Assembly (NCBI GenBank): GCA_003661385.1
Contig: QMWA01000041.1
Span: 1-10,959, forward strand
Direction: 5' to 3'
DNA from: Thermoproteota archaeon
Lineage (GTDB): Archaea > Korarchaeota > Korarchaeia > B14-G2
Length of the DNA: 10,959 bases
The notes under the pieces are model-generated. The model worked only from the letters and a program-made list of their open reading frames with translations. It did no database searches and was not told the origin of the DNA. The translations under genes were made by a program, and so were the position numbers. Every line of letters starts with the position of its first letter. The first letter of the stretch is position 1. This document shows, piece by piece, positions 1 through 10,697 of this stretch.

Positions 1-614
1 AGTAGGAAGTCATCTTTGGGAATAACAGACACAGGTACAGGTATCTTTAAGATGATAAACCACGAGATTTCAGAGGGGCTTCTATAGAACTCTAGCATAG
101 GACCTTCTATATCAAGCACTCCAACTACAGCAGAAGCATACCCTGAATGTAGAGCAACGTACAGCTCATCAGGCTTCACCTCTTTGAGAAGCCTCATGAC
201 CTCGTTGTCTCTGGATAAGGCATCAGCTAGCTTCCTAGATGGTGAAAACCCTTCTACGTTTCTGACGAGAATCGAAAGCGAGCTCATCGGCTTGAAGTGA
301 AACTTCTTGAAAAAGAAACCCTTAGCTTCAAGCTCGCACTCCAGAGTCTTTAAACGCCTGTAAAGCTCAGCATGCTTGCTTCTCATCTCAGTACTGTTTA
401 CGATGGTGGTCTTCCCGATGAGCGTGAGCTGATGCTCCATCCCAAATACACCGATGCTTCTCAGTTCGAGGGTAAGCTCGTCTAAATATGGGTTCTTAAG
501 GATCTTCACAGTGAGTTTGTCTCTTTCAGCCTTGAACTCCCCAGCATTATCACCTAGGTACTCGATGAGGAGCACAGGTTCTCTTGAGAAGATCTTCTTA
601 AGCAGTGACCGCAC
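1..614 (-). CDS. Uncharacterised protein, C-terminus cut by window edge
   Basis: An open frame of 204 codons runs without a stop from a GTG at 614 off the left edge, so the C-terminus is missing. I do not recognise the family. The visible part begins RSLLKKIFSREPVLL, then a stretch that reads like alternating strands and helices, and a charged helical stretch (about residues 75-100). No membrane helix, signal peptide, nucleotide-binding loop or metal-binding cysteine cluster is seen, so a soluble cytoplasmic protein is likely. GTG 614 is the only start codon in this frame near the promoter; no clear Shine-Dalgarno sequence precedes it, which fits a short-leader or leaderless transcript. It is divergent from the M28/FtsX gene and shares its 74-base upstream region. 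The frame is supported by its length, balanced charged-residue content and codon use (AGA/AGG arginine, ATA isoleucine) like its neighbours; function is unknown. Confidence 0.75.
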   Translation of the reverse strand, partial: MRSLLKKIFSREPVLLIEYLGDNAGEFKAERDKLTVKILKNPYLDELTLELRSIGVFGMEHQLTLIGKTTIVNSTEMRSKHAELYRRLKTLECELEAKGFFFKKFHFKPMSSLSILVRNVEGFSPSRKLADALSRDNEVMRLLKEVKPDELYVALHSGYASAVVGVLDIEGPMLEFYRSPSEISWFIILKIPVPVSVIPKDDFL

Positions 615-688: not shown

Positions 689-3600
689 TTGGCTAAAGGA
701 GCTAAAAGCAGGGCAATTGCAGCCTTAGCAGCTTTGGCTGTGCTCTTAACACCAACCACTCTGATGACAACCTGCTGGCAAGCAGCCAGCAGCTCAGAGA
801 TAGACTACAAGAGCATAGTCAAGAGCATAGACTATGATGCCATGAGAAAGCACATAGAATACCTCTCAAGCTTCTCAAGATTCCCTGGCTCAAAGGGAGC
901 TGAAAGGGCCCTAGAGTATGTCGCAGAAGAGCTTAGGAAGGCTGGAGTGGAGGTGCGTAAGGAGCCATTTGAGGCGACAACGCTGACAGTATACGAATGC
1001 AAGCTCAGGATATCATATGGTGGGGAAGCCTACAATATAGAGACACACCCACTTTACCCGAATGGAGTAGAAACCTGCACGACACCACCAGAGGGCATTA
1101 CAGGAAGACTCGTGTACGTGGGCAGAGTCTCGCTGGAAGACTTGAGAGGCAAAGACCTAAATGGGGCTATAGCTCTAGCTGAGTTCGACAGCGGCAAGCT
1201 CTGGGCAGATAGGCTAGTATCGCTTGGAGCCAAGGGGGTTGTATTCATTGAGCCTGAAGAGTACAGGATGTTAGAAGTTAACCTAAAGTGGATGTGGACT
1301 ATACCACTAGACTTCCCAAGAGTCGTGGTAGATAGGGAGCATGGCAAAAAGCTCATAGAGATGGCTGAGAAGGGAGCTGAAGCCACCATCATGCTCAAAA
1401 TGGAGTTCGAGAAGAAGACCATGTACAACCTGGTCGGCGAGATCAAGATAAACGAGGAAGCTGAGAGCATCCTCTTCGTAGCGCACTATGATGCCTGGTC
1501 TCCCATAGTAGACCAGGCATACGGTGCCACTGATGCAGTAGGAGTAGCGGTCATGATAGAGCTAGCTAGGTTCCTCAGCAAGAACAGGGATAAGCTTGCT
1601 AGGAACGTGATGTTTCTGGCCACGGCAGGAAACGGGTTGAGCCTGCTTGGAGCTAGAATGTTCATAGAGCAGCACTTCGACGAGCTGGCAGACATTCCAG
1701 CTGTCATAGCGATAGACATCAGAGGGCTAGGGAGCAAAATAGCAGTATACGATAGCGGGAGCATGTATAAGTGCATAGCAATGAGGCAGTCGCTGAGAAA
1801 CAAGTGGCTAAGAACAAGGATAGAGGAGCACAGCGAACAGATGCAGGAAAAACTGAAAGGCAACTACACAATAGTGGAGATAGAGTACAACACACAGTTG
1901 ATAACAAGCCCAACATACTTCTACTTCTCAGACCTTGAGCCATTCCTGCAAGCTGGGATGGTAGGACATAGCTTCTTTGACAAGGGGGGGGAGGAATGGA
2001 TAAGATTCACACCACACGATACAGCAGACAAAGTAAACCTTGAGACCTCTAAGAACGCAATAGAGCTACTTTACGCCACAGCTTACGACCTAGCTACAGG
2101 CTATGTTGAAAACAGGGTAGAGGGGCCGCTGAAGGTTGGAGCAGGGCTTGGATTCGCAACAATAGAGGTAAGAGTCATGGAGTACAACTTCACCAAAGCA
2201 GACTATGACCCACTTCCAAACGCAATAGTCTTGGTGCTTCCATTTGAAACAGGATTCCTCATGGAGGGGGGAGCAGTCCTCGGAAACTTTAGGATCATTG
2301 AGAAAACAGACAGCCGAGGGCGTGCTAAGATAGTAGGGATCCCGTCTGGATCAACGTGTATAGTTGCGCCATTTAAAGACAGCCCATCAGCCGGGCCAGT
2401 AGAGTATGCCCCTAACGCTGGAATGCTTTCACTTCCAGGGATTATGACTACAGCAAGCCGTGCAGTAAATTACGCGTATGTAGCAGCATTCCGCTGTGCC
2501 TCGGTATTCATACCTGAGTGCGAAAACCCGCTTGCTAGAACAGAGCTTGAGAAAATAGTATTTCCGCTTGCAATAGACCATGATTCGAAGGACTTTCTCG
2601 CAATGAAATACCCATATGCGATGAGCCAGGATGTAGAGCCCTTTTCAACAGACATATCAGGGCTCACTTCATGGGCAATGTTATACTTACCTCCCGGGAA
2701 GAAGTTTGACATAATTATAGTGAGGATAACTCCTAGAATGGAGGTGCTGGGAGTTCTTACCAATGCTATGGAGGATAAGCCTCTTGGAGAAGGGCTGGTA
2801 CTAGAAGAGGGGCAGCAGCTCATATTAACCCGGTTCATGGGGAGAATCGTCCACGATACGCATATACTCAACCTCTATAGGATCAGGATAGCTGATGAAA
2901 ACGACATCTACGCCGAGAACCCGATGAGATACATGGAGAAGGCTGAGTTTTATAGGAGAAGAATGGAGGAAGGCATCGCCAAGAATGACTACTTGAAGTA
3001 CATATCAAATGCGAGAGCTGCATGGAAGTTTGAGGCGAGAGCACATGGTGAGCTGGTCTCGCTGCTGTATAGTGCAGGCAAGTCCACTTACATATTCCTG
3101 CTAATACTCTTGCCATTTGCCGTCATAGGAGAGAGGTTGGTGTTCGAATACCGTGACATCAAAAAGAGGCTCCAGACTATAGCCTTGATATTCGCTGGAT
3201 CAGTCATCGTCCTATACGTACTTCATCCAGGATTTAGGCTGCTGACGAGCTTCGGGATGATACTGGCAATATTCCTCATGAGCGTGTTTACTACGGTGGC
3301 TATATTCCTCATTGGAGCAGAGACCTGGAGAGCTATTTCAGAAACCAGAAAGGTGAGGATAGGACTGCATGAAGCTGAGATAAGTAGAGCAGGAGCAGCA
3401 ATAGCAGCATTCTCCGTCGGGATCAGAAACCTGAGAAAGAGAAAGGACAGGACTATAATAACGATCCTGTCTATAGTGCTAGTGACTGCAGCGTTAGTCT
3501 CCTCCGTCTCTGTTCAAACAGTATTCCTTCCATCAGGGAAGAAAGGGGTAGAGAGAGCAACACCATACTCTGGGATACTCCTCAAGCAGCAGAGATGGAA

Positions 3601-5101
3601 CCCACTTGATGAAGGGCTGTCTGAAGCCATAGCAAGCGAGTACTCCAGCGTATTTTACCCTGTCACAAGGAGGGTATGGCTTATACCGCTAGGCAGGTTG
3701 AAGTTTATACCACCAACGGGGGAGGTAGGCGAGATATCAGGTGTATTAGGGCTAGATCCCGAGGAAGCAGAGCTACTACCTCTAAGAGACACTATAACCG
3801 AGGGGAGATGGCTAAGTGGTAGTAGACAAGAGTGCTTGATAAGCAAGCATATGGCATCAGTCTATGGCATCAAAGTTGGGGAGAAAGTCTCAGTTGGCGG
3901 GAGAGAGTTCACTGTAGTCGGGATATTCGATGACTACAAGTTTGAGAAAATCACAGACCTCGATGGATATCCTGCTAGGCCAGCCATTGGAGCTGGCAGA
4001 GCTATGCTTGTGAGAAGAGCAGTAGAGCAGAGACTTGAGTTCATAACTCCATCTAGTATGGTCATAGTCACAAGTGAGGTAGCACGTGGCATGGGAGGAT
4101 ACATATCATCGGTGGCAGCAAAACTTAGGAAAGATGTAGACATAGAGAAAGCTAGGGAAGCTTGTGAAGACATAGCCTACAAGTACAGTGTAGTAGTGAT
4201 ATTTGGCCACGAGGGCACAGTGGAGGAGTTTGAAGTCGTTCCCATCTCCATAACTAGAGGGATAACCCAGCTGCTTATACTAGTCGGGATCCTGATGCTC
4301 ACCATACTTGATACCATGCTTGCTGCAGTCCATGAAAGGAAAGACGAGATATCAATATACAGCGCGGTGGGGCTCTCACCGCTCCATGTCATGGGGCTAT
4401 TCCTGGCAGAAGCCCTCACGATAGGTGTCATAGGAGCAGTACTAGGATATGTTGGAGGCATGGGGATGCACAAGATGTTTAACCTGCTGGGGATTCTAAC
4501 CGAACTCCACCCGAACGTAACTACAAGCTGGATACCAGCTACACTAGTGTTCGTAGTGCTAGTGACATGTCTCTCATCGCTTTATCCGCTGAGCAAGGCA
4601 GCTACACTGGTGACCCCAGGTGTTGAGAGGAGGTTTAAGCTGCCATCCCCGAAAGGAGATGAATGGCACATACCTCTGCCATTTACGTCGAGCACGCTAG
4701 AAGCTGAAGGCGTGCTGGCATTTCTGCGAGAGTACATAGAAGGACAGAGCACAGAGAGAGAAGGAGACTTTACAGCAGATAAGCTCTGGCTAGAAGAAGA
4801 GGAAGAAGACGAGAACATAGTGAAATCGCTGACGATGGTGACTAGGCATGCACCATGGGACTTTGGCATATCGAACATCATAAAGATCAGAGCCATCATA
4901 CCGAAAGCCAAAGAGGGGGTCTGCAAGTTCGACATCTATGTTAAGAGGAGAAGCGGCTACGAGTCACAGTGGAAGAGCGCGGTAAGGAAGTTTGTGGACC
5001 ACATCAGAAAGCAACTGCTTATATGGAGAGGCCTCTCCCCGAGCGCCAGAGCAAGATACACTGGGCTGCTCTTGGAAGTTGAGAGAAGGAAGGGGGAGTA
5101 G
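689..5101 (+). CDS. M28-peptidase-like ectodomain fused to FtsX/MacB-type permease
   Basis: A 1470-residue membrane protein. Order seen: a hydrophobic signal or anchor (about 8-28); a cap/PA-like insert (about 100-235); an M28-like peptidase domain (about 240-470); a beta-rich stretch resembling a carboxypeptidase regulatory module (about 500-570); more external sequence to about 798; three helices (about 800-876); then a typical FtsX unit of one helix (922-945), a MacB-like external core (946-1188, with KVGEKVSVGGREFTVVGIF) and three helices (1189-1212, 1232-1260, 1283-1303) with the FtsX signature around YSAVGLSPLHVMGLFLAEAL. A cytoplasmic tail of about 165 residues has an acidic run (1368-1375). 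M28 metal ligands H266, D282 and D343 are visible, but the Glu-Glu motif is replaced (AGNGL, 313-317) and the usual HTxxDT histidine is F440. It may therefore be a binding pseudo-peptidase. The TTG start is chosen because it keeps the signal sequence, follows a G-run, and has a stop just upstream. No partner ATPase lies nearby. Confidence 0.9.
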   Translation: MAKGAKSRAIAALAALAVLLTPTTLMTTCWQAASSSEIDYKSIVKSIDYDAMRKHIEYLSSFSRFPGSKGAERALEYVAEELRKAGVEVRKEPFEATTLTVYECKLRISYGGEAYNIETHPLYPNGVETCTTPPEGITGRLVYVGRVSLEDLRGKDLNGAIALAEFDSGKLWADRLVSLGAKGVVFIEPEEYRMLEVNLKWMWTIPLDFPRVVVDREHGKKLIEMAEKGAEATIMLKMEFEKKTMYNLVGEIKINEEAESILFVAHYDAWSPIVDQAYGATDAVGVAVMIELARFLSKNRDKLARNVMFLATAGNGLSLLGARMFIEQHFDELADIPAVIAIDIRGLGSKIAVYDSGSMYKCIAMRQSLRNKWLRTRIEEHSEQMQEKLKGNYTIVEIEYNTQLITSPTYFYFSDLEPFLQAGMVGHSFFDKGGEEWIRFTPHDTADKVNLETSKNAIELLYATAYDLATGYVENRVEGPLKVGAGLGFATIEVRVMEYNFTKADYDPLPNAIVLVLPFETGFLMEGGAVLGNFRIIEKTDSRGRAKIVGIPSGSTCIVAPFKDSPSAGPVEYAPNAGMLSLPGIMTTASRAVNYAYVAAFRCASVFIPECENPLARTELEKIVFPLAIDHDSKDFLAMKYPYAMSQDVEPFSTDISGLTSWAMLYLPPGKKFDIIIVRITPRMEVLGVLTNAMEDKPLGEGLVLEEGQQLILTRFMGRIVHDTHILNLYRIRIADENDIYAENPMRYMEKAEFYRRRMEEGIAKNDYLKYISNARAAWKFEARAHGELVSLLYSAGKSTYIFLLILLPFAVIGERLVFEYRDIKKRLQTIALIFAGSVIVLYVLHPGFRLLTSFGMILAIFLMSVFTTVAIFLIGAETWRAISETRKVRIGLHEAEISRAGAAIAAFSVGIRNLRKRKDRTIITILSIVLVTAALVSSVSVQTVFLPSGKKGVERATPYSGILLKQQRWNPLDEGLSEAIASEYSSVFYPVTRRVWLIPLGRLKFIPPTGEVGEISGVLGLDPEEAELLPLRDTITEGRWLSGSRQECLISKHMASVYGIKVGEKVSVGGREFTVVGIFDDYKFEKITDLDGYPARPAIGAGRAMLVRRAVEQRLEFITPSSMVIVTSEVARGMGGYISSVAAKLRKDVDIEKAREACEDIAYKYSVVVIFGHEGTVEEFEVVPISITRGITQLLILVGILMLTILDTMLAAVHERKDEISIYSAVGLSPLHVMGLFLAEALTIGVIGAVLGYVGGMGMHKMFNLLGILTELHPNVTTSWIPATLVFVVLVTCLSSLYPLSKAATLVTPGVERRFKLPSPKGDEWHIPLPFTSSTLEAEGVLAFLREYIEGQSTEREGDFTADKLWLEEEEEDENIVKSLTMVTRHAPWDFGISNIIKIRAIIPKAKEGVCKFDIYVKRRSGYESQWKSAVRKFVDHIRKQLLIWRGLSPSARARYTGLLLEVERRKGE

Positions 5102-5105
5102 GAGA

Positions 5106-6944
5106 ATGGGAGAGGAGGTAACTGAATACAGAGAGGGCTTTACGCCTCGTGTAGTCCTGATAACAGCGATAGCAGGCCTCGTACTGTATCCTGTGATGCT
5201 ATGGGGGCACATAGCTGGAGTAGGAGCATTTGGGATAGCGGCAGCATTCATGACAATGGTCCTCTTTGGCGAGCTGACCAGGATATTTGGGTCACCACTC
5301 ACAGCAGCTGAGCTTGCTACAATAAGGTGGAGCGAGTCGATGTCGGTTATGTTCTTTGCAGCCTCCTCTTTCGTTTTCGCGTCATGGTTCAGAAGACATG
5401 AAATCGCGAAGGCGTTTGGAGTAGCAGACTTGCTTCCAGAATGGTATGCACCTCCACCGACGTCTCCAGCAGTGCTCACAAGAAACCTTTACCACAGGGA
5501 CTTCTGGTTCGCAGAAAATGCCCCATTTGGCATGGGGCCAGGACTTAAGTGGCTGATAGAGATAGGGCCTACATTGCTTGGTGTGGTAGCGCTCGCCATA
5601 ATAATAAGGCAGCTCTTCATCGTGGAGGAGAAGCTTCCATGGCCTACTGGAGCTATAGCTGGAGAGCTTGCTGTAGCGATGAGCAAGGAGAGAGACCCAA
5701 GTAGATTCAGATACTTCGCTGTAGCTGCAGTAGCAAGCATGATATACACGATAGTCCAGCTGGCTACGGTAGGGCTTATAGGATTCTTCGATCTAACACC
5801 AACACTAGGCCGTAGGCTGCCGGGCTGCATATTTACGATGACACCTGTACTCTATGACTTCGCACTAGGCCTAGTACTATCTCCACAGTTCATCTTAGGA
5901 TGGGCTATAGGAACGCTAGCAACTCAGTTCATCCTGAACCCAATCCTAGTAAGCAAGGGGATTATTAGGTGGATTCCTGGGATAAACTGGTCCCTAGCAT
6001 ACCAGTACTCGAGCCTAGACTTCTGGATAACTGCAGGCATAGCTATAGCGTTTGCAGTCGCGATACCCCCTCTACTGAGAGCCAGAGCGCTCCTTCCCAA
6101 AGCCATTAAGAGCTTATCTAAGATTTCGAGAGTGGAGGGAATGGGGCTCTTCTCACCTAAGGTTCTGATAGCTATGATCTTAGCAAGCTACACCTTCTCT
6201 GTTATATGGGCTAAGATATTTGCTCCAGACTACCCAATGTGGATAGCAGCCTTGTCAGCATTCCTACAAGTGATCTTCACAGTAGTCTCAGGGTACACTG
6301 TCGGTTTGATAGTAGTACCTGTATACCCGCCGTACATAACTAGGCTGCTCAACTTGACCTTCTATGATGGAATTAAGGGGTGGATAGTAGCACCTGAAGC
6401 TGCGCCTAGCATAGCTGTCGACCTAGGCATCGGGTTTAAGGCTGCTGAGATAGCAAAAGCCAACCCAATGAGCATAATAAAGGCGCATGTGTTCGGGTAC
6501 CTCTACGCCTCCCTACTAGGGTTCATATTCGTCCAGTTCTTCTGGAAGACCTTCGATATACCAAGCAGAGTTCTGCCAGCTCCAATGTGGCTCTTCAGCG
6601 TAATAGACTACAGCGTATGGTGGACAAGACGCGTGGAGATACTGTTCAGGTGGCACATACTCGTGCCATTCTTCATAGTAGGGCTAGTGCTGGCGTTCCT
6701 GCCCAACATGTATGCCCTTGGCCTCGGGATTGCACTAGGGCTAGGAGGGCTACCAACTGTCGTCATAATGTACCTGCTCGGAGTGGTAGCTAGGAAAATG
6801 CTAATCAGAAGATATGGGAAGGAGTGGTATGACAAATATCACATGAGCATTGCAGCAGGAATTTTCGCCGGGACAGCAACGATACAAGTGCTGTACCTGG
6901 TAATGCAGTTCCTGCCCAGCATACTGTGGCCTCTTCCCTACTAG
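5106..6944 (+). CDS. OPT-like oligopeptide transporter
   Basis: A 612-residue polytopic membrane protein with about 13-14 predicted helices (for example 16-36, 40-58, 78-94, 150-171, 203-225, 262-282, 305-324, 352-370, 377-403, 456-477, 515-533, 537-562, 580-604). Features that recall the OPT (oligopeptide transporter) family are the EEKLPWPTGAIAGEL segment (174-188), the NPMSIIKAHVFGYLYASLLG segment (453-472) and the late GLGIALGLGGLPTVVIMYL stretch (539-557). OPT proteins import small peptides or metal chelates, usually with protons; the substrate here is inferred only. The start is ATG 5106 rather than an upstream in-frame codon: GGGGGAG at 5092-5098 sits 7 bases before it, and the upstream option would overlap the previous gene by over 100 bases. 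It begins 4 bases after the M28/FtsX stop, so the two are very likely one operon. Family assignment is by general resemblance, not by a full profile match. Confidence 0.75.
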   Translation: MGEEVTEYREGFTPRVVLITAIAGLVLYPVMLWGHIAGVGAFGIAAAFMTMVLFGELTRIFGSPLTAAELATIRWSESMSVMFFAASSFVFASWFRRHEIAKAFGVADLLPEWYAPPPTSPAVLTRNLYHRDFWFAENAPFGMGPGLKWLIEIGPTLLGVVALAIIIRQLFIVEEKLPWPTGAIAGELAVAMSKERDPSRFRYFAVAAVASMIYTIVQLATVGLIGFFDLTPTLGRRLPGCIFTMTPVLYDFALGLVLSPQFILGWAIGTLATQFILNPILVSKGIIRWIPGINWSLAYQYSSLDFWITAGIAIAFAVAIPPLLRARALLPKAIKSLSKISRVEGMGLFSPKVLIAMILASYTFSVIWAKIFAPDYPMWIAALSAFLQVIFTVVSGYTVGLIVVPVYPPYITRLLNLTFYDGIKGWIVAPEAAPSIAVDLGIGFKAAEIAKANPMSIIKAHVFGYLYASLLGFIFVQFFWKTFDIPSRVLPAPMWLFSVIDYSVWWTRRVEILFRWHILVPFFIVGLVLAFLPNMYALGLGIALGLGGLPTVVIMYLLGVVARKMLIRRYGKEWYDKYHMSIAAGIFAGTATIQVLYLVMQFLPSILWPLPY

Positions 6945-7336
6945 CCCCCTCTAATTTGTTTAGACTCTGGAACCTCGACTTCAATGAGCCTTCTCTTGCT
7001 GAGCATAGATAGGAATGCTGTTACTGACAGCTCTGCTTCTCTTGGTGTGAAGTTAAACTTCTTGGCAAACTCCCTTATGATTTCCTCTATTGTCGTTTTC
7101 CCATCTAGCTTCTTCCATACAAACACCGCTCTGGGGTCGTCTAGTATCGTCTTTCTGACCTTTGGCTTCATGAGAAGCACGTTCACGGTCTTGCGCAGTA
7201 TGCTCTTGTCTTCTCTGGTCCACGTTATCACAACCTCTCCACTGTCATACTCCCTCCACTCGATGCTCAGGCTCTTCTTTGGCTTGAGGGACAAGAAGCT
7301 CCTCCTGTCAAGCTTTAGAGTCTTCTTCCTCAGCAT
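6941..7336 (-). CDS. PqqD-like (RRE-fold) protein
   Basis: A 131-residue soluble protein. The C-terminal half (about 60-122) has the PqqD pattern: ILDDPRAVFVWKKLDGKTTI, then an amphipathic helix EEIIREFAKKFNF and a final helix ending FLSMLSKRRLIEVE. PqqD-type domains bind leader peptides of ribosomal peptide natural products and hand them to modifying enzymes; many archaeal homologues stand alone and have no known role. No radical SAM or other modifying enzyme and no obvious precursor peptide is visible nearby. The N-terminal half is basic (KLDRRSFLSLKPKKS) and beta-rich. ATG 7336 is chosen because GGTGG at 7346-7342 lies 5 bases before it and it follows the zinc-ribbon stop by one base; TTG 7348 or GTG 7345 would add 3-4 residues (135 residues at most) and overlap the previous gene. 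Its stop overlaps the transporter stop in the shared CTAG. Confidence 0.8.
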   Translation of the reverse strand: MLRKKTLKLDRRSFLSLKPKKSLSIEWREYDSGEVVITWTREDKSILRKTVNVLLMKPKVRKTILDDPRAVFVWKKLDGKTTIEEIIREFAKKFNFTPREAELSVTAFLSMLSKRRLIEVEVPESKQIRGG

Positions 7337-7337
7337 C

Positions 7338-7553
7338 TCATCCACCAAACAGCAGGAACTTGGCGACTAGTAGGAATATTATCAGGAGAACTGGTGATAT
7401 TAGGGTGGTGACTGTTATAACTCGCTTTGCTCTAATCAACGACTCTACTTCAGCTATGTATTTCTTCTCGCAAGCAACTGAACAGAACTGGTTACCGGCT
7501 TTAATCACTCTGCCACAGACCTTGCAGTGAGAGTGCTCAGGTATGGAGCTCAT
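7338..7553 (-). CDS. Membrane-anchored zinc-ribbon protein, DUF2116-like
   Basis: A 71-residue protein with an N-terminal treble-clef or zinc-ribbon motif HSHCKVCG...FCSVAC, giving four cysteine ligands C10, C13, C24 and C28, then a charged helix (about 29-44) and one C-terminal membrane helix (about 47-69). This is the layout of DUF2116-type archaeal proteins (HCxxCG, FCSxxC, linker, hydrophobic tail). The zinc module should face the cytoplasm if the tail is inserted C-terminus out. Role unknown; such ribbons usually bind RNA or protein. ATG 7553 is chosen over an in-frame start 33 bases upstream (7586): a near-perfect GAGGTGA (7565-7559) lies 5 bases before it, and family members start close to the first cysteine. 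The upstream gene's TGA is the end of that ribosome binding site, so translation of the two is probably coupled. Confidence 0.85.
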   Translation of the reverse strand: MSSIPEHSHCKVCGRVIKAGNQFCSVACEKKYIAEVESLIRAKRVITVTTLISPVLLIIFLLVAKFLLFGG

Positions 7554-7911: not shown

Positions 7912-8790
7912 TCAGCCTCCTGGGGACTCACATGGCTCTTTGAGGTACAGGAATACACCCTTATCTAAGCGTGCTGCTGGAGTGAGTGTGTATTCTGATG
8001 GAAAGTAGAGCAGTTGGTTATCCCTTAACATTATGAAGCAGCCAAATGATGTCAAGTTGAGGCTGCTGCACTCAGGCATGGTGAACCAAGTGCTCTCTAC
8101 CATTAGTATACCCTCCCCTACCAGCATCACCCTTAAGGTGATGTTATCAGACTCTATCTCAATCGGCTTCTCGCTGACTGTCAGGTTTCCGCTAGGTGAA
8201 GCTATCGACACTCCGTGAGCGCTGTAGTAGGCTTCATATCCACACCATGGTAGGCTGGCTGTGCCATCAAGCTCTAAGTGCAGTGTTGAGAACAGCTTAA
8301 TGGAGCAGTTCTCACGTGAGAATATTATCCCTGACTTAGCGTGGGGGATGTATAGCCTTGAGATGTTTTCTGTTATCTCTATGCTCCTACCAAGTAGGAT
8401 TGTAGCCTTTTTCTCGTGACAGCTGACGACGTAGTAGCAGTTATACCCCATACTTAGAACAGATGGCACGTAGAAGTGGCCTATTTTCTGGCTGGGGTCT
8501 ATGAAGATTACTGTAGGAAATCCTTGAAAGACGTTGTATGCCATGATCCAGCATGTCAGGAATACCAGCAAAGATGCCATCGCAGCAGGTTTATAGAAGT
8601 CGCCTAGCTTCTGTAATGCCTTTATGTACACTTTCTTAGCTGTTGCTATGACCGCTGTGCTGGCTAGATATACTGCTATGTACGTGGAGAAAGCTACTGC
8701 AGGCTTCAAGTTAGCAGCTCCAGTGATTAAGCCTGTTATGGCAGCTATTGTACAGTGGTAGAGGTATAGCTTTAACTTGGGTCCTTCCAT
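7912..8790 (-). CDS. Three-helix membrane protein with external domain, possibly EMC6-like
   Basis: A 292-residue protein. Residues 1-90 hold three membrane helices (about 8-27, 31-50, 68-87) with a basic cytoplasmic loop between helices 2 and 3. The pattern (AAITGLITGAANL in helix 1, a WIMAY-type end of helix 3) resembles EMC6-like archaeal membrane proteins, relatives of a subunit of the eukaryotic ER membrane protein insertase; I hold this as a moderate-to-weak match. By the positive-inside rule the C-terminal part (about 90-292) faces outside. It is beta-rich, contains seven cysteines (118, 124, 162, 183, 241, 251, 287) that could form disulphides, and five N-X-S/T sequons (N142, N161, N202, N216, N245), as expected for an exported glycosylated domain. 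ATG 8790 is preceded at four bases by GGTGGA. It is first in the minus-strand operon and divergent from the NFACT gene. Confidence 0.8.
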   Translation of the reverse strand: MEGPKLKLYLYHCTIAAITGLITGAANLKPAVAFSTYIAVYLASTAVIATAKKVYIKALQKLGDFYKPAAMASLLVFLTCWIMAYNVFQGFPTVIFIDPSQKIGHFYVPSVLSMGYNCYYVVSCHEKKATILLGRSIEITENISRLYIPHAKSGIIFSRENCSIKLFSTLHLELDGTASLPWCGYEAYYSAHGVSIASPSGNLTVSEKPIEIESDNITLRVMLVGEGILMVESTWFTMPECSSLNLTSFGCFIMLRDNQLLYFPSEYTLTPAARLDKGVFLYLKEPCESPGG

Positions 8791-8830
8791 GTATCCACCA
8801 GCTAGGTCCTGTAGTAGAGGTTAAAATGTT
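8770..8830. promoter_or_regulatory. Compact divergent promoter region, NFACT versus membrane-protein operon
   Basis: Only 35 bases separate the two divergent ATGs (8790 minus, 8826 plus), so each promoter must reach into the opposite coding sequence. A candidate TATA box for the minus operon is ATTTTAA, read on the minus strand near 8828-8822, about 35 bases before its start. A candidate for the plus gene is CTTTAACTT at 8770-8778, about 50 bases before its start. Each start has its own short ribosome binding site (GGTGGA for minus, GAGGT at 8817-8821 for plus). The TATA assignments are by eye and weak. Confidence 0.35.
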
Positions 8831-10697
8831 ACCCATAGCGGGGATTAGCTTGAAGATAAGAGAAATATCATCGCTAGAGCTGGCTAGAATCGTGGAGGAG
8901 ATCAGAGAGGAGCTGATAGGAGCTAGGGTAGGCAAGATATACCACATAGACGGGGGGCTGCTGAGCATTGTGCTTAGAACTAGAGAGCATGGAAGAAAGG
9001 AGCTGCTGATCTGGCCAGGAGCTGCTGTGTTCGTGACTAACTCTAAGTGGATTAAGCCACAGAGCCCAAGCAGCTTTGCAATGCTGTTGAGGAAGTACTT
9101 GGAGGGAGGTGTCATCGAGGAGGTTAGGCAGGAGGACTTTGACAGGGTGTTTACGCTCAGAATCAGGCATAGAGGCAGATTCTATAGGCTCGTAGCCTTT
9201 CTACACAGCAGAGGGGATGTGGTATTAGCTGATGATGAATACAGGGTCATTTCAGCTGTTAACTGGAGTATAGCTGGGAGAAAGCTGCATAAGGGCGATA
9301 AGCTGGAGTTTAAGAGGTACAATAATCCATTAGACGGGTTAGATGCAGGAAAACTAGCTGAGCTATCTGACATGGAGCTCTGGAGAGTGCTTGCAATAGA
9401 ATTGGGGCTCGGAACAGCTTACGCGACCATACTCGCTGGAAAGCTTGGACTTAACATGAAGCTGAAGCTAGGTGAGCAGCAAGTTTCCTATGATAAGCTG
9501 GCCAGGGCCATTGTGGAGTACGCAGAGCTCCTCTATAAAGCTCCAGCTAAAGTCCTCTATCATGGGGAGAATGTAGAGGGGTATCTGCTAAACCCAAGTG
9601 GGGAGAGAAAGCTGCTGAATGATGCATTAGACGAGTACTATACGCATGTATATGAGCAGCTTACTGGGCATAGAGAGGGCTTAGATAAAAAGACCAGGAA
9701 GAAACTTAGATCTCTTGAGAGAAGAGCTGGGGAGCTCAGGCAGAAGGCTGAAGAGTATAGAGCCCAGGCAGAAGCCGTCTACTCACAGCTTCATGTAATA
9801 GACGAAGCGCTAAAGGCTGTTAGGCAGGGAAAAAGCTTCCCTGATGGCTTGATCAAGATAGTTTCCATTGATAGAAGAGGGCATAGGGTTACCATGGAAG
9901 TAGATGGGCAAGCCGTCACACTGGACTTTTTGCAAACAGCCTCTGAAAATGCAAACACGCTCTATGAGAAAGCTAAGAAGGCTGAAAGAAGGCTAAGAGA
10001 GACCTTAGACTTGATGAAGAGATTGAGAGAAGCAGCGTCTGAAGCTGAGAAAGCGCCCGTAAGAGCTGTCATGAGAAGAAGGTGGTTTGAAAGGTTTAGG
10101 TGGTTTATTTCATCAGAGGGTATTCTGGTTGCTGCTGGCAAAGATGTTAAGAGCAACAGAGAGCTAGTGAAGAAGTACATGAGCCCTGAGAACCTGTTCT
10201 TCCACTCCGAGTTCGAGGGAGCCTGCGTGATAGCTTTCTGTAGCCCTGGAGATGAGGTTGAGAAGACTGTCGTAGAGGCGGCAGAGTATGCTGCTTCCCT
10301 CTCAAAGGCTTGGGAGCAAGGATTGTCTTCAGCAGAAGTCTACTATGTGCAAGGGAACCAGGTAAAAGCTACAGCTCCTCATGGACACTACATACCTAAA
10401 GGGGGCTTTTACATCGAAGGGCCTAGAAGGTATGTTAGAGCTCAACTTAAGCTAGCACTGGGCATTATGCTTACTGACGAGGGAGCTAAGCTTGTCTTAG
10501 GGCCTATATCGGCGATAAAAAGCAGCTGCAAGTACTATGTGGTGGTAAGACCTGGAGGAAGTAGCAAGGGTGAGTTAGCTAGGAAGGCTAGAGACATGCT
10601 TTTAAAGAAAGTCGGAACAAGCCTAGGGGAAGTACTGGAGCTAGATGAGCTGGCGTCTGTGCTTCCAGCTAGTGGTGAGCTAGTTGAGGAGGAGTAG
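8826..10697 (+). CDS. rqcH: NFACT family protein, archaeal RqcH/Rqc2/NEMF homologue
   Basis: A 623-residue cytoplasmic protein with the usual NFACT order: NFACT-N (about 10-280, including a helical HhH-like part near 170-215), long coiled coil (about 285-405) and NFACT-R/DUF814 domain (about 418-545) with the hallmark WFERFRWFISSEGILVAAGKD, YMSPENLFFHSEFEGA, EAAEYAASLSKAW and APHGHYIPKGGFYIEG stretches. The Asp-Arg motif that Rqc2/RqcH proteins need for tRNA recruitment is present as DFDR (D106, R107). Family members bind large ribosomal subunits that carry stalled nascent chains and add C-terminal alanine-type tails marking them for degradation; tailing by this protein is inferred. Length is normal for archaeal members. 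ATG 8826 is chosen because GAGGT lies four bases before it and earlier in-frame codons would run back over the opposite gene. A CBS-domain gene follows after 13 bases. Confidence 0.92.
   Translation: MLPIAGISLKIREISSLELARIVEEIREELIGARVGKIYHIDGGLLSIVLRTREHGRKELLIWPGAAVFVTNSKWIKPQSPSSFAMLLRKYLEGGVIEEVRQEDFDRVFTLRIRHRGRFYRLVAFLHSRGDVVLADDEYRVISAVNWSIAGRKLHKGDKLEFKRYNNPLDGLDAGKLAELSDMELWRVLAIELGLGTAYATILAGKLGLNMKLKLGEQQVSYDKLARAIVEYAELLYKAPAKVLYHGENVEGYLLNPSGERKLLNDALDEYYTHVYEQLTGHREGLDKKTRKKLRSLERRAGELRQKAEEYRAQAEAVYSQLHVIDEALKAVRQGKSFPDGLIKIVSIDRRGHRVTMEVDGQAVTLDFLQTASENANTLYEKAKKAERRLRETLDLMKRLREAASEAEKAPVRAVMRRRWFERFRWFISSEGILVAAGKDVKSNRELVKKYMSPENLFFHSEFEGACVIAFCSPGDEVEKTVVEAAEYAASLSKAWEQGLSSAEVYYVQGNQVKATAPHGHYIPKGGFYIEGPRRYVRAQLKLALGIMLTDEGAKLVLGPISAIKSSCKYYVVVRPGGSSKGELARKARDMLLKKVGTSLGEVLELDELASVLPASGELVEEE

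Follow-up and report, generated by a model that had tools for sequence, protein, structure and literature searches.

The M28 peptidase fold, stripped of its catalytic residues, is found in nicalin, nicastrin and the transferrin receptor, eukaryotic single-pass subunits or receptors that are anchored in the membrane and use the fold for binding. Quite different machines are the type VII ABC systems, in which ATP drives mechanical work outside the membrane (PMC12646458; PMC5985334), with no passage of substrate through a pore (PMC12646458).

The korarchaeal locus that we describe here lies in a window of 10,959 nucleotides (the whole stretch of DNA analysed) and encodes a fusion protein in which a MacB/FtsX-type (type VII ABC) permease carries an M28-fold domain as its ectodomain (Table 1). 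The fusion shares the MacB_PCD and FtsX domains with MacAB, LolCDE, FtsEX and YbbAP-TesA, and many loci of its family encode an ATPase of the LolD/MacB type. In YbbAP-TesA, too, an enzyme accompanies a permease (PMC12646458), whereas in the present system the enzyme-like domain is fused to the permease and apparently degenerate in catalysis, and the locus has OPT transporters. When compared with BSAP/YwaD (6hc7) and the AM-1 aminopeptidase (2ek8), the domain has the same fold, including a PA-like insert. It keeps the HxD, the GAxD and the later Asp of the M28 aminopeptidases, including that of Vibrio (1amp), but differs from them in being without the general-base Glu, a ligand Glu and the last ligand His, and in being joined to a membrane permease. 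Nicalin and the transferrin receptor are profile matches of this domain, though neither of them, nor nicastrin, belongs to an ABC permease; the match to the Nicastrin Pfam family reached 20.2 bits, under the cut-off of 25. The gene that follows belongs to PF03169, the family of OPT transporters such as Smar_1400 (PMC2678158). The literature that we searched yielded nothing on an M28-FtsX fusion, on DUF6785 or on a PqqD/FtsX/OPT locus, and described no OPT transporter as the partner of an ABC permease or a pseudo-peptidase; nor did a term search of papers on Brockarchaeota and Tardisphaera find a mention of the fusion. We thus found no description of a fusion/OPT system in that literature.

Table 1. 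Features of the fusion gene, its predicted domains and site residues, and its neighbours (positions in the window).
Feature	Position	Strand	Basis
Predicted pseudo-M28/MacB-FtsX fusion protein, 1470 aa	689..5101	+	TTG start; Pfam
Putative signal peptide, residues 1-29	689..775	+	hydrophobic stretch 9-27 after K/R residues
N-terminal M28-fold part with PA-like insert, residues 42-245	812..1423	+	AlphaFold model, fold matches
M28-fold core, residues 247-463	1427..2077	+	PF04389; PDB fold matches
H266-Y-D268, retained HxD	1484..1492	+	alignment with M28 proteins and homologues
D282, bridging-ligand position kept	1532..1534	+	alignment
N315-G316 replacing general-base Glu and ligand Glu	1631..1636	+	alignment, profile alignment
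D343, ligand position kept	1715..1717	+	alignment
F440-T-P-H-D-T replacing H-T-P-x-D-T	2006..2023	+	alignment
Beta-sandwich and helical linker before membrane, residues 469-785	2093..3043	+	secondary structure of model
Three predicted TM helices ahead of MacB unit	3071..3328	+	hydropathy
MacB_PCD periplasmic-type core domain including first TM, residues 922-1160	3452..4168	+	Pfam
FtsX C-terminal three-TM domain, residues 1196-1306	4274..4606	+	Pfam
C-terminal domain, likely cytosolic, residues 1310-1470	4616..5098	+	hydropathy; 54% identity in G021
OPT-family transporter gene	5106..6944	+	PF03169, 40.9 bits (cut-off 25.8)
PqqD-like protein	6941..7348	-	Pfam; homologues in same locus elsewhere
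Unnamed protein, divergent from fusion	3..614	-	32% homologue, same place in G021

Domain layout and catalytic site of the fusion

Pfam assigns residues 247-463 to Peptidase_M28 (PF04389) with 83.9 bits against a cut-off of 21.3, and the first-pass annotation, which had put an M28-like domain at 1406-2041, was nearly right in its placement. Both MacB_PCD and FtsX score above their Pfam cut-offs, and they follow the order of type VII permeases, with MacB_PCD between the first and second transmembrane helices and the three-TM FtsX domain after it (domains from Pfam, helix order by hydropathy). The region ahead of the M28 core, residues 42-245, contains a conserved NGVETCTTP segment, and residues 120-249 are 50% identical to the counterpart in a second korarchaeal genome, G021. 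A PA domain is also seen, below the Pfam cut-off, in members of the family from Poribacteria.

Taking up the proposal of the first-pass annotation to predict the structure, we ran AlphaFold on residues 42-785 with 30 family members and obtained a model with a mean pLDDT of 85.3 and a pTM of 0.88, which confidently predicts the M28 fold for the ectodomain. Its best PDB matches have Z-scores of about 30: the top match is BSAP (6hc7; Z 31.7, rmsd 5.3, 378 residues), the Vibrio aminopeptidase is also found (1amp; Z 29.8, rmsd 2.3 Å, 261 residues), the transferrin receptor and GCPII come lower and M28-fold glutaminyl cyclases are matched too, in a fold comparison that bears mainly on the model up to about its residue 511 (552 of the protein).

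We assigned the site from a profile alignment with M28 enzymes of solved structure (2ek8, 6hc6) and from alignment to intact archaeal M28 proteins. H266, D282 and D343, which had been noticed in the contexts AHYDAW, GATDAVG and AIDIRG, are indeed present at these residues. The proposed replacement of AEExGLxGS by AGNGLSLLGA also stands: ATAGNGLSLLGAR pairs with A-E-E-x-G-L-x-G-S with no gap, which puts N315 at the position of the base Glu and G316 at that of the ligand Glu. The first-pass view of FTPHDT, that the histidine of HTPxDT had moved by three places, survives in part: F440 does occupy the place of the ligand His, but H443 is the variable x of the motif and not a shifted ligand. We rejected H443 as a rescued ligand, since it is not conserved among the homologues.

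Our alignment of homologues has 44 rows; in one of them (L197:6276-8999), a C-terminal fragment, the M28 part is missing, which leaves 43. None of these 43, from Archaea and Bacteria, has a Glu at 315 or 316 or a His at 440, and the same is true in a smaller set of 29. The base, one ligand Glu and the last His are thus lost family-wide, though N315 and F440, from the AGNG and FTPHDT variants whose conservation the first-pass annotation had asked about, themselves differ between members. D268 is the most conserved of the remaining site residues (43/44 rows); P442 is kept in 43 and D343 in 39 of the 44, and position 315 is His in 36, with Asn in the fusion of the window. His266, Asp282 and Asp343 persist in most archaeal members, with His266 present in most rows of the first archaeal set, whereas bacteria conserve another set, made up of Asp268, His at 315, Asp343 and Asp at 440. 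Position 266 is Tyr or Phe in bacteria, and position 440 is Asp in nearly all of them, compared to Ala, Gly, Phe, Gln or Ser in archaea. By a pattern check, five Poribacteria members share the bacterial YYDS and HFQG features.

For comparison we considered M28 proteins outside the family, 17 in all, encoded in the window genome and in related ones. By simple patterns, 10 of them show all four motifs and 14 keep the last His; this control is rough, since L169, L171 and L178 among the 17 also failed these patterns. Because the loss spans the rows of the family while other M28 proteins mostly keep their motifs, the degenerate site is old and common to the family. A sequencing error or assembly artefact was rejected as the origin of the lost residues, given that homologues share the loss, and the Korarchaeum-type M28 proteins (728-780 aa) were rejected as family members, being ordinary M28 proteins with intact motifs. 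Two korarchaeal proteins (L046:2665-4581 and L047:4721-6532) look like ordinary M28 proteins with His for the general-base Glu and the ligand Glu kept (GHESG), a site resembling that of the E151H mutant of the Vibrio aminopeptidase (2anp). Between two Staphylothermus-type genomes (G203 and G465) the M28 part has a dN/dS of 0.12, which indicates purifying selection. Taken at the level of sequence, this argues strongly that the M28 domain of the fusion is a pseudo-peptidase and not an active two-metal M28 peptidase. The first-pass annotation had read it in this way from one protein, and the reading is borne out by a loss that runs through the family in two domains of life with the fold and purifying selection kept. 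The conservation of D268, the permease half, the OPT locus and the breadth of the family go beyond that annotation.

Family distribution and gene neighbourhood

A whole-protein pattern search of the genome contigs gave no match, whereas profile searches did find members: a two-row profile reached G203, and a three-row profile then found the wider set. Among korarchaeal relatives the same fusion occurs only in G021, with 39% identity, in a gene that is spread over the ends of two contigs, with 127 nt common to both. The idea that the fusion is confined to two korarchaeal genomes was overturned by the match in G203, a complete genome of 1,580,347 bases that we take to be Staphylothermus hellenicus; G465, presumably S. 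marinus, has 1,570,485 bases. By profile search, archaeal carriers are found in Thermoprotei, Brockarchaeota, Bathyarchaeota and Thermofilaceae, and bacterial ones in Armatimonadota (including Zipacnadia), Omnitrophota, Planctomycetota and Poribacteria. A quick tree splits the archaeal from the bacterial members, and SH-aLRT gives this split full support. Weak M28 matches in Sphingomonas (L139 and L140) were excluded. Complete fusion frames range from about 1460 to 2560 aa, and the fusion of L118 is split into three frames. Those of Poribacteria (L129, L131, L132, L134 and L135) have 2400-2560 aa and extra inserts, and a LysM insert is present in both that were scanned (L129 and L135). Brockarchaeota and Thermoprotei genomes have several paralogues (nine and eight matches, respectively, some of which are partial or other M28 proteins).

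The ATG of the OPT gene in the window (position 5106) comes 4 nt past the stop of the fusion. This association is widespread: of the 48 loci with enough flank, 43 have an OPT gene, or one for the OPT-like DUF6785, no more than 2.5 kb from the fusion, paralogues included (the exceptions are L106, L118, L126, L132 and L198). The PqqD-like gene, whose product might be a peptide binder or a tether for a partner, recurs in the loci of G021, of Staphylothermus-type genomes (G203), of Armatimonadota and of Poribacteria (with L119, L121, L124, L129 and L134 among these loci). On the other side of the fusion, the G021 homologue of the unnamed protein is followed by an OPT-like DUF6785 gene. Six fusion loci encode a protein of about 320 aa that has no credible Pfam match. 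Further downstream the window encodes a membrane protein with a weak EMC6 match (7912-8790, minus strand; a 22.5% homologue lies downstream in G021 too), an NFACT/Rqc2-RqcH homologue (8748-10697, plus strand; NFACT_N and NFACT-R_1) that is unlinked to the fusion finding, and, judged by eye, the first part of a CBS-domain-like protein that runs off the contig (10684-10959, plus strand).

Sixteen loci also contain a half FtsX permease of about 200 aa, a closely related ABC ATPase, or both, and these ATPases are 57-78% identical to the korarchaeal one, those of bacteria included. The window genome has an orthologous half-permease and ATPase pair on another contig (G000:C4), unlinked to the fusion, so we infer the partnership of the fusion with this pair from the other genomes. 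The large permease that precedes this pair in G020 has no M28 part and carries an N-terminal CarboxypepD_reg-like domain instead, and in G025 the pair also stands behind a large permease, as far as the cut contig shows. One half-permease/ATPase pair would thus seem to serve large permeases with differing outer domains. In two loci (L165:13509-15586 and L162:3598-5668) a half-permease is accompanied by two ABC ATPases side by side, which share 64-71% identity with the korarchaeal one, and the ATPase pair of L165 sits between two GH57 genes. The window genome (L163:3489-4232, G000) and G021 (L164:4762-5517) each have a further related ABC ATPase, in both cases without an adjacent half-permease.

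A possible uptake machine and its alternatives

The presence of a dead-peptidase fusion beside OPT genes across Archaea and Bacteria points to an uptake machine rather than a peptidase. We propose that the pseudo-M28 domain is a non-hydrolytic arm that captures substrate, is moved by ATP together with the half-permease and ATPase, and feeds the adjacent OPT carriers, a reading that we rate at about an even chance. The arm would bind an extracellular oligomer, and the large permease would work with the separate half-permease of about 200 aa and the ABC ATPase. The ATPase cycle would then move the arm by mechanotransmission, so that it catches, strips, releases or presents the oligomer, which OPT-family carriers would take over and import. 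Binding by the arm, its partners, the direction of transport and the class of substrate are all what we infer from the comparisons above. As the characterised type VII systems act outward or laterally, the case for import comes from the OPT genes alone. In a bolder version, the type VII permease with its pseudo-M28 receptor arm would be a widespread uptake machine comparable in function to SusCD, handing polymers, probably glycans, to OPT importers; this we consider somewhat unlikely.

The clues to the substrate come from neighbouring genes. Loci of archaeal paralogues often adjoin sugar-degrading genes, and GH57, GH66, GH42, GH130, CBM4_9, GFO/IDH/MocA and TrmB are among the neighbours of archaeal members (raw occurrences). 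A bacterial paralogue (L198) adjoins a PcRGLX-type protein; otherwise the neighbours in bacterial loci are mostly generic, with no trend to sugar genes. The names OPT and M28 suggest a peptide, and the OPT gene of S. marinus, Smar_1400, has been read as a peptide transporter, with glycogen synthase at Smar_1393 (PMC2678158). By gene order the S. marinus fusion would be about Smar_1398. For archaea the neighbouring genes lead us to favour glycans slightly.

A different role is conceivable in export or maintenance of the envelope, as with LolCDE, MacB and FtsEX, where the arm would hold on to a lipoprotein or to a component of the S-layer or cell wall, and OPT would be a mere frequent neighbour. 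All characterised type VII systems of E. coli act on the envelope (PMC12646458), and the LysM domains of the Poribacteria members and the generic neighbours of most bacterial loci would fit as well. This role, however, gives no reason why 43 of the 48 loci (paralogues included), from two domains of life, should be linked to OPT/DUF6785, and the multiple copies in single Thermoprotei and Brockarchaeota genomes look like substrate-specific uptake and not housekeeping; we judge it somewhat unlikely. The site might also have been remodelled into that of a one-metal enzyme, the second option of the first-pass annotation, or of a metal-free one, for instance like a cyclase or hydrolase, from the residues that remain. 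The conservation of D268 (43/44), D343 (39/44) and His at the base position (36/44) would agree with this, as would the E151H mutant of the Vibrio aminopeptidase, titled 'functional' in the PDB (2anp), and the glutaminyl cyclases among the structure matches. Yet the lost ligand Glu has no conserved substitute, the fusion of the window has Asn at 315, and the set of ligands differs by clade, with His266 replaced by Tyr or Phe in bacteria and position 440 also different. Because the retained residues differ between clades in this way, we regard such an enzyme as improbable, less likely than an envelope role. That a peptidase has recently decayed and is degenerating without a new function would account for the loss of several catalytic residues, and for an Asn at 315 where the family has His. 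It is nevertheless very hard to reconcile with a loss common to archaeal and bacterial clades, with frames that stay open over 1460-2560 aa in many genomes and with the low dN/dS, which speaks against decay, and we give it hardly any weight.

The capture-arm reading can be put to the test, as members of the family occur in Staphylothermus-type genomes, which appear to be those of cultivated species. The pseudo-M28 domain would bind a substrate instead of cleaving it. In archaea and Armatimonadota, a count of extracellular peptidases by Peptidase_M28 matches can include proteins that are none. A dead peptidase fold would here have found a new use as the outer arm of an ABC machine, in a cross-domain family with linkage to OPT importers; what these carry in prokaryotes is poorly known. 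If the comparison with SusCD is true, some OPT carriers would move oligosaccharides, by a machine that has multiplied within the genomes of some archaeal lineages.
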